Of a DNA stretch of 64,000 bases, positions 5,769-58,197 are shown in pieces. This stretch comes from Mycoplasma sp. SG1 (GTDB taxonomy: Bacteria; Bacillota_I; Bacilli_A; Mycoplasmatales; SG1), in the NCBI RefSeq assembly GCF_023612375.1, contig NZ_CP076852.1, positions 186,001 to 250,000 on the forward strand. The letters are read 5' to 3'. Below the pieces are notes generated by a model, which saw only the letters and a program-made list of their open reading frames with translations, was not told the DNA's origin and did not search any database. Position numbers and translations under genes: made by a program. Each line of letters begins with the position of its first letter. The stretch's first letter is position 1.

Positions 5769-7531
5769 ATGGACAATTTAAATTGAAATTTAGAAAAAAT
5801 TTTAGATAAAAAATCTCTTTCAACCTTAAAAGAAGAGATGATAAAAGCAACAGACACTATAGTTAAACTAAAAGGTAAGATTAGTGATTCAGTTGAAAAT
5901 CTTTCAACATTTTTAAAATCTTATCAAAATTTTAAAATTAACTTAGATTTAGTTTATGCCTATTTAGGTAATAAGGAAAATGAAGATTTAAGCAATATTA
6001 CAAGTCAAAATCAATTATTAGAATTTTCAAGTTTTGAAAATAAACTTTCTTCAAAAATCATTTTTTGAAGAAATGAGTTATTGGACAAGAAAAGCGAAGT
6101 TTTAAATTTAATTAAAGATGATTCTTTAAAACTATATACAACTTATTTTGATCAGTTTTATTATTTTGACAAACATCGCTTATCAAACGAGGCTGAATCT
6201 GCATTACAATATTTATCAGAATATTTTAATTCTAATCACTCAACATTTTCAAAATTGACAAATGTTGATTTTAAATTTAAACCAATTAAAAAAGATGGGC
6301 AGTCAATTGATTTACATCCAGGCAACTATAGTAAATTTATTTCTGATGTCGATCCTAAGGTCCGAAAACAAGCCTATCAAAAATTTTGATCAGTATATTT
6401 TGATCATAAAACAGGATTAACAAATAACGCTTATTATCATTGGATGTTAACTGGAAAATTAGCGAAATTATATAAATATCCATCATCTTTAAAACAACAT
6501 CTAGCAAGCGACTTTTTAGATCAGCCTTTTTATGATTTTCTTTTAGATCAAATTAAAAAAAATAGCAATCTTATTTATAAATGGAAACAAATTTTAGCAA
6601 AAGTGACAACAATCGACAATCCTTTTCCATGAGATTGAAGTGGTGATTTATTTCCAACAATTGAAGATAAATTTGAAATAGATGAAACAAAACAGTTAAT
6701 AAAAGATGCTTTAGCAGTTTTAGGAGATGAATATCAAACAAAAATAGATTATATTTTTAACAATCAATTAATCAGTTGACTGCCGAAAAAAAATAAAAGA
6801 AGCGGTGCTTATTCATGAGGAGTTTGAGGAGCTGATCCATATATTTTAATGAATTGGAATGATAAATATTTGGATGCAAGCACTTTAATTCATGAAATAG
6901 GACATTCAATTCACACTCTTTTTTCATCACAAAATCAACCATACGTTTATCATTCATATCCAATCTTTTTAGCTGAAATTGCATCAATTACAAATGAACT
7001 TTTATTCGGGACTTATCAATTAAATCAAACAAATGATAATAATAAGAAAAAATTTATTCTTGAAAAATTAATCAAAGAATTTATCGCCACCGTTTATCGG
7101 CAAGGTCAATTCGCTGAATTTGAAAAAATTGTTCATGCAAAAATTGAAAATAATAAACCAATCAGTTATATTGATTTAAAAAAAATTGCAACCAGTTGCA
7201 AAAAAAATATTTACCAAAACTTGAAACTGAAAAAAAAGTCAATAAATATTCTTGACTGTGAACGATTTATGTTCCGCATTTCTTTTCAGATTTCTATGTT
7301 TTTAAATATGCTACAGGAATGATTGCAGCCGCTAGTTTTGTTAATAAAATCTTAACTGAAGGTGATAAAGGTAGAAATGATTATTTAAAATTTTTAAAAT
7401 CAGGATCAAGCGATAAACCTTTCCAAATATTAAAAAATTGTGGCGTTGATTTAAACTCTGAAGCAACCTATACAAGGGCATTTAAATTTCTTGAATCATG
7501 GATAAACGATTTAAATAAAATAATAATATAG
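5769..7531 (+). CDS. pepF: Oligoendopeptidase F (M3 metallopeptidase), frameshifted in the given sequence
   Basis: PepF is a cytosolic zinc peptidase of family M3 that cuts short peptides. The protein starts at ATG 5769 (MDNLNWNLEK) and shows the zinc motif HEIGH at residues 375-379 in LIHEIGHSIHTLFSS. The C-terminal family signature VPHFFSDFYVFKYATGM lies in a different frame (-1) from the catalytic part. Frames agree up to TSCKK and resume at YLPKLETEKK, so the break falls in the run of eight A at 7200-7207; one added A restores a normal ~587-residue protein. This is either a homopolymer error, a real mutation or slippage. It stands alone between the tuf terminator and the S10 promoter. Confidence 0.9.
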
Positions 7532-22253: not shown

Positions 22254-23219
22254 ATGAATATAAAATTTAAAAAACCTACTACTAATTTCAAAATCCTTGA
22301 TGAAGATCAAAATCATGGTCAACTTATTTATGGACCATTAGAAAGAGGATTCGCTAACACTCTTGGCAATAGTTTAAGAAGGGTGATGCTTTCATCTTTA
22401 ACTGGTGCTTCTGTTTATGCTATCAAAGTTGAAAATGTTGTTCATGAATTTTCTTCAATATCTGGTGTATTAGAAAAATTAACCGACATAATTATTAATT
22501 TAAAAAAACTAATTTTTAAAGTTGATTTAAATTTATTTCCAGAAAACAACACCACAACCTTAGTTTTAAAAGTAACTAAAGCAAAAAAAATAACAGCTAA
22601 AAGCATCAAATGTCCCCCTGAAATTGAAGTAGTAAATAAAAATTTATATCTTCTTACAGCAACAAAGGATATATCATTAACAATTAATTTATTTGTAAAA
22701 GTAGGTCGTGGTTATGTTAGTTTTCTTGACAATCAAAAAGAAATCAAAGAATCAAGAGTAATTGCCATTGATTCTTTATTTTCACCAATTGAGACAGTTA
22801 CTTTTCATAGCGAAGAAATTAAATCAGCATTATCAAAACCATACGAAAATCTTATTTTAGACGTTAAAACAAATGGTGCTATCAAAGTTGATACTGCTAT
22901 TTTTCAATCAATTGAAATCTTAAGAAACCATTTAGACAACTTAAAAGAAAAATTAACTTCTTCAGTTCAAGTTCTTGAAGATGAAAATATTTTTGAAATA
23001 GATGTTACTGACGAAGAAACTGATACAAGTATTTTAGTTGAAGATCTTGACTTTACGTATAAAACTTATAACACTTTGAAAAAGAATGGGATAATATATT
23101 TATCAGAAATTCTAGCTTTAACGGAAGCTGAACTGTTAAAACTACCATCATTTGGTGAAGTTTGTTTAAATGAAGTTAAAGCTGTTTTAGAAAAAAGAAA
23201 TTTATCACTTAAAATTTAA
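22254..23219 (+). CDS. rpoA: RNA polymerase alpha subunit
   Basis: Alpha dimerises to start polymerase assembly (N-terminal domain) and touches promoter DNA and regulators (C-terminal domain). NTD signature: GPLERGFANTLGNSLRRVML, followed by EFSSISGVLEKLTDIIINLK. The CTD covers residues ~260-321: FTYKTYNTLKKNGIIYLSEI and LLKLPSFGEVCLNEVKAVLE. Compared with E. coli, the Arg265 position appears to be Lys, Asn268 is kept, and the Lys298-Ser299 pair is not kept. Length is 321. A second, detached CTD-like domain is found at 52749-53297. Confidence 0.97.
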   Translation: MNIKFKKPTTNFKILDEDQNHGQLIYGPLERGFANTLGNSLRRVMLSSLTGASVYAIKVENVVHEFSSISGVLEKLTDIIINLKKLIFKVDLNLFPENNTTTLVLKVTKAKKITAKSIKCPPEIEVVNKNLYLLTATKDISLTINLFVKVGRGYVSFLDNQKEIKESRVIAIDSLFSPIETVTFHSEEIKSALSKPYENLILDVKTNGAIKVDTAIFQSIEILRNHLDNLKEKLTSSVQVLEDENIFEIDVTDEETDTSILVEDLDFTYKTYNTLKKNGIIYLSEILALTEAELLKLPSFGEVCLNEVKAVLEKRNLSLKI

Positions 23220-51727: not shown

Positions 51728-52670
51728 TTCTAGCTATTGAAGCAACTTGCGATGATACAAGTTTTGCTGTTTTGAAAGATCATAAAGTTATTAGTTTAAC
51801 TAAAAAAGTCCAAGCCATTCATCAAAACTATAATGGAATCATTCCAGAATTAGCTGCCCGCTATCATTTTAAAGATTATGATCAATTTCTTCTTCAAGCT
51901 TTACAAGAAGCTAAAATAAGTTTTTTTGATCTTAATTTTATTGCATATAGCGAAAAACCAGGATTACCGGCGTGTTTACATATTTGTAAATCAATCGCCA
52001 AATCTTTAAGTTTTATTCTAAACATTCCCCTTATTCCAATCAATCATTTATCAGCCCATCTTTTTTCTAGTTTAATTGATAATAATAAACCGCAGTTATT
52101 TATCGAACAAACGAATTTAGGTCTTATTTTATCAGGCGGTCACACAAATATTTATCTTTGAAAAGAAAATAAATTAAAAATTATCGGAGAAACTTTAGAT
52201 GATGCAATTGGGAGTGTTTTGATAAATTAGCGGTTGTTTTAGGTTTAAATTATCCATGAGGAGAAAATTTTGAAAAATTTACAACGAATGGATCATTAAA
52301 ATTTACCTTTTCTTTACCCAAAAATATTGATTTTAATTTTTCTTATAGTGGTTTAAAAACAGAATTTTTAAAGCAGATTAAAACGATTGATGAAAATGAA
52401 AAAGTAAATTTAGCATACAGTTTTCAACATTATGCTTTCCTTCAAGTTATTTTAAATTTAAAAAAAGTTATTTTAAAGTATAAACCAGTCAATTTATTTA
52501 TTGGAGGAGGGGTCACTCAAAATAAATATTTTCAAAATTTTATTAAAAAAGAACTGCAAAATATGAATATTAATTTTTATTTTCCCCTAAATAAATATTG
52601 TAGTGATAACGCTGGAATGATTGGTTATCTAGCTTGACTAAAAATAAATAAACTTATTCAATTAGATTAA
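51721..52670 (+). CDS. tsaD: tRNA t6A synthase TsaD, frameshifted in the given sequence
   Basis: TsaD transfers the threonylcarbamoyl group onto A37 of ANN-decoding tRNAs. The N-terminal half has AIEATCDDTSFAVLKD, the metal His pair INHLSAHLFSSL (His109 and His113), and SGGHTNIYL. The frame then breaks near a run of four T at 52217-52220 (SVF-DKLAVVLGLNYPWG in the -1 frame); one added T restores the protein of ~317 residues, including the late GGGVTQNKYF and CSDNAGMIGYLAW motifs. TsaD is essential in most bacteria, so a base-call error is likely. Confidence 0.9.
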
Positions 52671-52696
52671 TGGTTAACATTAAAAATGTATCTTAG

Positions 52697-52702
52697 TATA
52701 AT
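52697..52702 (+). promoter_or_regulatory. Putative -10 element upstream of the alpha-CTD-like gene
   Basis: TATAAT in the 78-base gap after tsaD, 47-52 bases before the ATG at 52749. Confidence 0.45.
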
Positions 52703-52748: not shown

Positions 52749-53297
52749 ATGTTAGAAAACGACGAATATGCTTTAACAACTACTAATGATGCAGCAAAAG
52801 AACATAAAATTCTTTCCCTTGATGAAGTAGAAAAAATGATTGAAAATAATACTTTTAAAGATTATGATGTTGAAAAACTTTGTCTTTTAGGTTATTTATC
52901 AAGAAGAACCGCGAATACTCTTAAAAAAAATGATATTACATCCCTTTCTGAAATTATTTATTTTACACCCGAGGATTTATTAGAATTAGAGTCTCTTGGC
53001 AAAGGTGCGTTATTGGAAATAAAAACGATGTTATATAAATTAAATTTATCGCTGTCTTTAAGCGAAAAAGAACAAGACACTTCAAAAAGTGCATCAAAAT
53101 GATTGGACAAAGAACTTGGTCAACGTAAAGAATTTGAACAAATACAACAACAATTAGAAATAATCAATCAAAGACAAAAAGTGATTGAAGATAAGAAACG
53201 AAAACAAAAAAACCAGACAATTATTGGGATTATTTATTGTGTTGTGGCAGTAATTGCAGTAATTATTGTTTTATCTATCACACTTAACCTTAAATAA
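52749..53297 (+). CDS. Tail-anchored protein with RNA polymerase alpha-CTD-like domain
   Basis: The 182-residue protein has three parts. Residues ~40-103 match the alpha CTD: LCLLGYLSRRTANTLKKNDI and LLELESLGKGALLEIKTMLY. Its RTANTL resembles E. coli RSANCL (Arg265 and Asn268, which touch the DNA minor groove), and the two-helix GKG turn is kept. Residues ~117-155 form a charged helix (GQRKEFEQIQQQLEIINQRQ). Residues ~157-181 (TIIGIIYCVVAVIAVIIVL) are a membrane helix at the C-terminus, so it is tail-anchored with the DNA-binding part in the cytosol. The link passes through one TGA (Trp) at 53100-53102; with the standard code two separate frames would appear. No family I know has this layout. 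Confidence 0.75.
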
Positions 53298-56639: not shown

Positions 56640-58197
56640 ATGAAAATTAAACCGACATTATTATGTATTATGGATGGGTATGGGTTAGATAAACCAGGCG
56701 CTTGAAATGCGATATCATCTGCATCTACCCCAAACTTAGATTTTTTGTACAAAAATTATCCAAATATTAAATTACATGCTTCTGGAAAATTCGTTGGATT
56801 ACCAGATGATCAGTTTGGTAATTCTGAAGTTGGGCATATGAATATTGGTTCAGGGAGAGTTGTTCATCAAACTTTATGCCTAATCAACAACGAAATTGAA
56901 AGTGGTGAGTTTTACAAGAAGCCTGCAATTAAAGAATTTGCTGAAAAACTTGAAAATTCTAAAAATCAAAGATTACATATTATTGGGTTGTATTCAAAAG
57001 GTGGGGTTCATTCATCAATTGAACATTTTATCGGAGTTCTTAATTTAAAAAAACATTTTAAAATAAAAGAAGTTTACCTTCATTTAATTTTTGATGGAAG
57101 GGATGTTAAATATAATTCTGCTTTAGAAGATTTAACAGAACTTTTAAAACTTTTAAAAGAATATAAAAATGTTTATCTAGCTTCTATTTCAGGCCGTTAT
57201 TATTCAATGGATCGTGATAAGCGTTGAGAAAGAATTTCTTTAGCTTACAATGCTATCGTTTTAAGGGAAGGTAAAAGCTTTACAGATCCTTGTAAATATC
57301 TAGAAGAAAGTTATAGCAAAAAAATATATGATGAATTCATAGTTCCAGCATATAACAGCAAAATAGAAGGTTCTAAGTTTAAAGCTAATGATTCGGTTTT
57401 TCTTTTTAACTTTAGAAAAGATAGAGCAATTGAATTAGCAAGTTCTATTACTAACAAGGAGTATATTTGAAGACCAAAACAAGTTATTTCAAACATTAAT
57501 TTTATTTCAATGACTCATTTTGCTGACTCTGTGAAAGGTTTAGTTGCCTACAAAGATCAAGTTATTAAAAACACTTTTGGCGAATGAGTTGCAAATAAAG
57601 GTTGAAAACAATTAAGAATCGCTGAAACAGAAAAATACGCCCATGTAACTTTTTTCTTTAACGGTGGTGTTGATGTTACCTATAACAATGAAAAACGAAT
57701 TCTAATTCCATCTCCAAAAGTTGCAACTTATGATTTAAAACCTGAAATGTCCGCATCAGCAATTACTGAGCAACTTTTAAAAGAAATCGAAAATCATAAT
57801 CCATATAAGTTAATTGTTTTAAATTTTGCAAATTGCGATATGGTTGGTCATACTGGAAAACTTGAACCTGCTATTAAAGCGGTTGAAGAAGTTGACAAAT
57901 GTATTGGTATTTTATATCAAAACTTTAAAAAACTAAAAGGAACGAATTTTTTTAACCGCCGATCATGGTAATGCTGATAAAATGTATGATGAAAACGGCG
58001 AACCTGTCACTTCTCATACTTTTGCCTTAGTTCCTTTCCTTGTAACCGATCAAAAATATAAATTTATTAAAAAAATCGGTAAACTTGGTGATATTGCACC
58101 AACAATTATTAGTTATTGAGGAGAAAATCCGCCAGCAGAAATGACTGGTAATATTCTTTTAGAAAAAAACCCATCTTTATGAAACAAAAAAAAGTAG
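56640..58197 (+). CDS. gpmI: 2,3-bisphosphoglycerate-independent phosphoglycerate mutase, frameshifted
   Basis: This cofactor-independent, metal-dependent mutase joins 3-PG and 2-PG in glycolysis. Motifs of the alkaline-phosphatase superfamily: [24 protein letters not shown] (active Ser), [28 protein letters not shown], and the later [10 protein letters not shown] and SHT metal ligands. These last motifs are in the +1 frame after a run of seven T at 57947-57953; removing one T gives [14 protein letters not shown] and a ~518-residue protein. The stop TAG 58195-58197 overlaps pfkA by 19 bases. Essential in many Mollicutes, so an error is plausible. Confidence 0.92.

Follow-up and report, generated by a model that had tools for sequence, protein, structure and literature searches.

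Mycoplasma sp. SG1 encodes an RNA polymerase alpha C-terminal domain (alpha-CTD) that is detached from the alpha subunit and continues into a helix and a predicted C-terminal membrane anchor. The gene lies in the window, the 64,000-nucleotide stretch of contig NZ_CP076852.1 analysed here. The alpha-CTD is a basic docking part of bacterial RNA polymerase, occurs nearly always within RpoA and also serves as a protein-docking domain. The identity of the detached domain is well supported, and sequence comparison likewise gives good support for a presumed origin of the gene as a lineage-specific partial duplicate of rpoA in which the CTD alone was retained. As to its role, the membrane-anchored alpha-CTD might serve there as a dock for AT-rich DNA or for partners of the alpha-CTD, a tentative reading to which we give nearly an even chance. 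The finding is real and unusual, and its weight is limited by the single genome and by the broken housekeeping genes.

The gene and its reading frame

The protein consists, in order, of an acidic N-terminal segment, the alpha-CTD, a helix and a C-terminal membrane helix (Table 1). An earlier note on this DNA had proposed one frame joining an alpha-CTD-like domain, a helix and a C-terminal membrane helix, and the Pfam match, the structural model and the hydropathy profile agree with that layout. The same note had made the single frame conditional on TGA being read as Trp, and codon 118 is the sole TGA among the 182 codons. TGA occupies conserved Trp positions in GapA ('SWYDNE'), EF-G and RplB ('TPWG') of the same genome, outnumbers TGG in many housekeeping genes within the window, and is not among the stops of the genes checked, all of which end in TAA or TAG; the reading of TGA as Trp is therefore sound. 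In a codon model trained on 18 genes of the window, the ORF frame scored above all five alternatives over almost the entire gene, the exceptions being 90 bases near 53019, where the signal was about zero, a place near 53109 where one minus frame scored similarly, and the last bases. Because the coding signal stays in the ORF frame on either side of the TGA, the CTD and the tail form a single coding unit. An artefact of a misread stop at 53100 was rejected on the evidence for TGA as Trp together with the nearly continuous coding signal.

Table 1. Features of the detached alpha-CTD gene and of its source paralogue in the window
Feature	Position	Strand	Basis or remark
Promoter-like site TTAACA-17-TATAAT (11/12)	52674..52702	+	just past the tsaD stop, 46 nt before the ATG
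Whole gene, 182 aa (code 4)	52749..53297	+	ATG 52749, TAA 53297
N-terminal segment, residues 1-40	52749..52868	+	acidic; no convincing family match
Alpha-CTD, residues about 41-103	52869..53057	+	PF03118, AlphaFold2, Foldseek
Arg53 (codon AGA), equivalent of E. coli alpha R265	52905..52907	+	alignment
TGA read as Trp118, between CTD and helix	53100..53102	+	TGA = Trp at conserved positions
Amphipathic, possibly coiled-coil helix, residues 119-150, leading into KKRKQK	53103..53198	+	heptad analysis, full-length model
C-terminal transmembrane helix, residues 157-179, 3 residues after	53217..53285	+	hydropathy
rpoA of the genome, source paralogue, 321 aa	22254..23219	+	
CTD of RpoA; Lys270 (codon AAA at 23061)	23037..23216	+	41/41 other distinct RpoA have Arg

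The gene is flanked by tsaD and gap, and it may possess its own promoter: the promoter-like site upstream is the best of 7, and it is suggestive only, as the total number of such sites is no higher than in shuffled sequence. The stretch between the gene and gap gave neither a terminator nor a structured or known RNA. The usual occupant of the place upstream of gap in several other families of the order is a DnaI-like gene (named by sequence likeness), so the arrangement tsaD-detached CTD-gap is particular to this genome.

Identity of the detached domain

Residues 50-95 match the Pfam family PF03118 (RNA_pol_A_CTD) with E=2.6e-8 and 33.9 bits, against a curated cut-off of 23.8. The best 41 of 51 matches of the protein to solved structures are RpoA chains, and RpoA also heads the NCBIfam search, whereas the RpoA assembly domains PF01193 and PF01000, both present in the RpoA of this genome, are absent from the detached protein by Pfam. 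Residues 31-114 were modelled by AlphaFold2 from two rows, the other being the RpoA of the same window, giving a pLDDT of 86.9 (94-97 in the core) and a pTM of 0.76; this fold depends in part on the sequence match, because the RpoA row biases the model toward an alpha-CTD. The closest Foldseek match of the model is the B. subtilis alpha-CTD 3gfk_B (rmsd 0.8 Å over 64 columns, TM 0.76 by target), taken from a Spx/alpha-CTD complex, and nearly all of the best 50 matches are alpha-CTDs. A single-sequence model of the full-length protein was weak (pLDDT 61, with low confidence in the CTD region), but it placed the helices in a similar order and had one unbroken helix over residues 106-181. The alpha-CTD fold suspected earlier is borne out by the Pfam score and by the nearest structure, and the presence of a true RNA polymerase alpha-CTD is well supported.

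The domain could instead be a generic helix-hairpin-helix DNA-binding domain that acquired an anchor, since PF03118 also admits other proteins: some DNA ligases pass its cut-off, and so does a conjugation-element-like membrane protein of genome G140, which reaches 31 bits and matches HHH_5 as well. For the detached protein, however, HHH_5 does not match even with E relaxed to 10; RpoA supplies the best matches in all of Pfam, PDB and NCBIfam, and in the tree the protein pairs with the RpoA of its own genome, so that this explanation is largely refuted and very improbable. Another point of comparison is the 95-residue stand-alone alpha-CTD-like protein NF005841/PRK07758, which is also a free domain and aligns at residues 43-101; the match nevertheless reaches only E=0.039 and 14 bits against a cut-off of 115, and the length of that model leaves no room for an anchor.

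Probable descent from rpoA

The genome contains two alpha-CTDs, that of RpoA and the detached copy, and rpoA is the only other match to the detached CTD within it (48% identity, E=8.6e-9; 60% at the nucleotide level). In a CTD tree of 46 rows and 63 columns, the two are sisters with support of 95/91 and a long shared stem, in keeping with the earlier proposal of a paralogue of the rpoA in the window, made from the segments NTLKKN and SLSEI/YLSEI; NTLKKN and LSEI are indeed shared exactly. The detached copy has an end branch of 0.78 and its own RpoA one of 1.99, and with both rows long-branched over 63 columns, long-branch attraction may have contributed to the pairing. Pairwise identity points in the same direction as the tree: the detached CTD shares 49% identity with the RpoA of its genome, and its median identity to other RpoA is 32%. 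Taken with the failure to find an orthologue in the order (see below), the tree pairing and this identity argue for a lineage-specific partial duplication.

Both CTD copies have changed. In 32 of 41 comparisons with foreign RpoA CTDs, the detached copy is the nearer of the two, and the CTD of the SG1 RpoA is over-diverged for its N-terminal domain (NTD), at 0.32, where pairs of like NTD identity have a median of 0.42. A lineage-specific rpoA duplication with acceleration of both paralogues has been described for alpha1 and alpha2 of Francisella (PMC3294249), and the SG1 pair resembles it in that both copies changed; the Francisella paralogues, however, are full alpha subunits in RNA polymerase, while the SG1 copy is a CTD alone, without an assembly domain.

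The age of the duplicate also bears on whether the gene does anything. A stray copy of the rpoA 3' end might have captured a downstream frame with a hydrophobic end and persisted as a neutral by-product, which would suit an orphan gene of one genome, the ease with which hydrophobic stretches arise in AT-rich frames, and an assembly in which housekeeping genes are broken, among them the neighbouring tsaD on the upstream side. Yet after so old a divergence, as judged from the amino-acid and nucleotide identities, the frame is intact and its coding signal nearly continuous, and structural and several DNA-contact residues were kept while RpoA changed. That a frame should stay intact for so long in a genome of 0.62 Mb speaks for selection, and because the old duplicate kept both frame and fold in so small a genome, we consider a neutral by-product unlikely.

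Distribution among related genomes

A protein search of 319 other genomes of the order yielded no orthologue of the detached CTD gene, the best examined matches being rpoA in its usual place between the genes for S11 and L17, and none was found in two scans of genome contigs (the second with two patterns only), viral contigs and plasmids. The SG1 genome is the sole member of its family among the genomes searched. In the order, 145 genomes gave more than one PF03118 match at a loose threshold, and second copies above the cut-off were few among them; the copies followed up included, apart from DNA ligases, one conjugation-element-like membrane protein, one protein beside hsdM and three Spiroplasma-like proteins with signal-peptide-like segments. 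Second copies above the cut-off were rare as well in 139 genomes of the class, where a few weaker second CTDs also occurred.

The three Spiroplasma-like proteins are similar in design. Two closely similar genomes encode 117-residue proteins (L052:2367-2720 and L053:2375-2728) and a third a 131-residue protein (L054:2448-2843), in each of which a signal-peptide-like N-terminus precedes an alpha-CTD of 64-68 bits (genomes G186, G183 and G191). Like the SG1 protein, they combine a detached alpha-CTD with a hydrophobic segment within the same order; their hydrophobic segment, in contrast, is N-terminal, which would place the CTD outside or export it, and their equivalent of N268 is Ile. The possible export of an alpha-CTD is odd in itself. 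In the tree these domains group with Spiroplasma rpoA, indicating an origin independent of the SG1 gene rather than common ancestry. The gene lies directly upstream of gap in two of the three genomes, and this shared neighbourhood had been entertained as a sign of common origin; it was dropped, given the DnaI-like gene usual at that place and the separate origin of the Spiroplasma CTDs. The independent cases suggest that detachment of an alpha-CTD and its union with a hydrophobic segment happened more than once.

Several further proteins were observed in passing. The G140 membrane protein (L056:2064-3911) belongs to a conjugation-element-like gene set, carries its alpha-CTD/HhH-like domain in the C-terminal tail (407-453) and has two identical matches in its genome. 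A 138-residue protein of G174 (L055:2294-2710) with an alpha-CTD-like domain of 29.9 bits follows right after an hsdM-like methylase gene. In G414, one of the genomes of the class, an alpha-CTD of 68 bits sits in a 492-residue protein (L092:1504-2982) whose gene immediately follows that of a Snf2-type helicase. A single frame of 445 codons (L094, G373:C3:64674-65132) contains two alpha-CTD matches in tandem and is apparently an RpoA with a doubled CTD.

DNA-contact residues

The DNA-binding patch of E. coli alpha comprises R265, N268, C269, G296, K298, S299 and E302. These positions were compared in 41 other distinct RpoA of the order, in the RpoA of SG1 and in the detached copy. At the R265 position, all 41 and the detached copy carry Arg, and the RpoA of SG1 has Lys (codon 23061-23063); the equivalents of N268 and G296 are kept throughout, in both SG1 copies as in all 41, and that of E302 in both copies and 40 of the 41. 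At K298 all 41 have Lys, the SG1 RpoA Val and the detached copy Gly; at S299, 37 of the 41 have Ser and 4 have Ala, the SG1 RpoA has Cys and the detached copy Ala. The patch of the detached copy thus reads R, N, T, G, G, A, E, identical to E. coli at four of seven positions, so that the full patch is not present. In B. subtilis, Ala could not be introduced at the equivalents of R265 and G296 (PMC4495994). The CTD of the SG1 RpoA itself seems to have lost conserved DNA-contact residues, with Lys for R265 and Val-Cys for Lys298-Ser299.

The detached domain therefore shares with the RpoA CTD its fold, its core sequence and the equivalents of R265, N268, G296 and E302, and differs in being off the alpha NTD, in the loss of K298 and S299 and in the added helix and membrane anchor. 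Of the residue claims made earlier, the retention of Arg265 and Asn268 and the contrast of RTANTL with KTYNTL in RpoA are exact, while the changes of K298 to Gly and S299 to Ala make UP-element binding possible rather than expected. Because these two residues are lost, DNA binding by the detached CTD is not assured and may be weak or absent, and for the same reason a role confined to proteins has to be taken seriously. The protein could be a decoy or scaffold that has lost DNA binding and sequesters a regulator or holds a complex at the membrane, and this would accord with the roughly neutral overall charge of the CTD, with the acidic N-terminal segment, with the protein docking known for alpha-CTDs and with the Spx complex as best PDB match. 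On the other hand, the equivalents of R265, N268, G296 and E302, kept here more fully than in the SG1 RpoA, would be unneeded without DNA contact, and no partner can be named; we regard such a role as rather unlikely, though a serious rival.

Predicted membrane anchor and known membrane-bound regulators

The membrane helix claimed earlier at the C-terminus stands out in hydropathy, with a mean Kyte-Doolittle value of 3.03 over residues 157-177 against 0.63 for the runner-up segment. Five basic residues lie within 149-154, ahead of the helix, and only 3 residues follow it, from which the positive-inside rule predicts a cytoplasmic CTD. The protein is accordingly predicted to be tail-anchored with its CTD facing the cytoplasm. 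Over residues 119-150, one heptad register has 56% hydrophobic residues at a/d, the other registers 11-33%, and a short coiled coil is possible there, by which two copies may pair.

Regulators that sit in the membrane and carry a DNA-binding domain are widespread, and about 91% of them use 11 common DNA-binding domains, among which helix-turn-helix predominates; the transmembrane transcription regulators (TTRs) ToxR, TcpP and CadC unite a DNA-binding domain and a membrane helix in one protein (PMC10269533). The SG1 protein resembles TTRs in combining a cytoplasmic N-terminal domain of DNA-binding type with a membrane helix, both predicted here, but has an alpha-CTD in place of the usual helix-turn-helix and, with 3 residues after the helix, no extracellular sensor. 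The earlier remark that no described family is known to have this layout holds in part: a tail-anchored alpha-CTD was seen in no other genome of the order and class samples searched, and a literature search, mainly of non-subscription papers, returned no described case of a membrane-anchored or detached alpha-CTD, whereas detached alpha-CTDs exist in the Spiroplasma-like genomes and TTRs are a known class.

Possible function

For docking of DNA or alpha-CTD partners at the membrane, the following course is conceivable. The rpoA CTD would have been duplicated alone and then joined to the helix and the C-terminal anchor, and the protein would insert tail-first into the cytoplasmic membrane with its CTD in the cytoplasm. 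The amphipathic helix may pair two copies, so that one or two CTDs would be presented on the inner face, where they could dock AT-rich DNA through the kept Arg, Asn, Gly and Glu of the 265 patch or, alternatively, capture the usual protein partners of the alpha-CTD. In this way nucleoid DNA or transcription complexes would be brought to the membrane, and the protein would act like a membrane-bound transcription or nucleoid factor without an outside sensor domain.

A stronger version of this proposal supposes a division of labour, in which RpoA lost contacts from its CTD (R265 to Lys, K298 to Val, S299 to Cys) and the Arg-keeping membrane copy holds AT-rich promoter or nucleoid DNA, supplying part of the upstream contact in trans; we think this quite unlikely. 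If the detached copy was indeed kept while the CTD of the polymerase itself lost contacts, DNA contact would be able to move off the enzyme. For wall-less minimal bacteria, the gene is also a small system in which a link of transcription or nucleoid organisation to the membrane could be tested.

Further observations on the genome

The genome measures 622,752 bp in one contig and is estimated to be 81% complete. Apparent frameshifts split tsaD (52220-52240), a phosphoglycerate mutase gene (57960-57990) and a peptidase gene (7190-7360) in the window; these splits are perhaps homopolymer assembly errors and may help to explain the estimated completeness. Between 35938 and 48222, at least 8 short genes with lipoprotein-type starts (MKK...FAGC) follow one another in a run and probably form a surface lipoprotein family.
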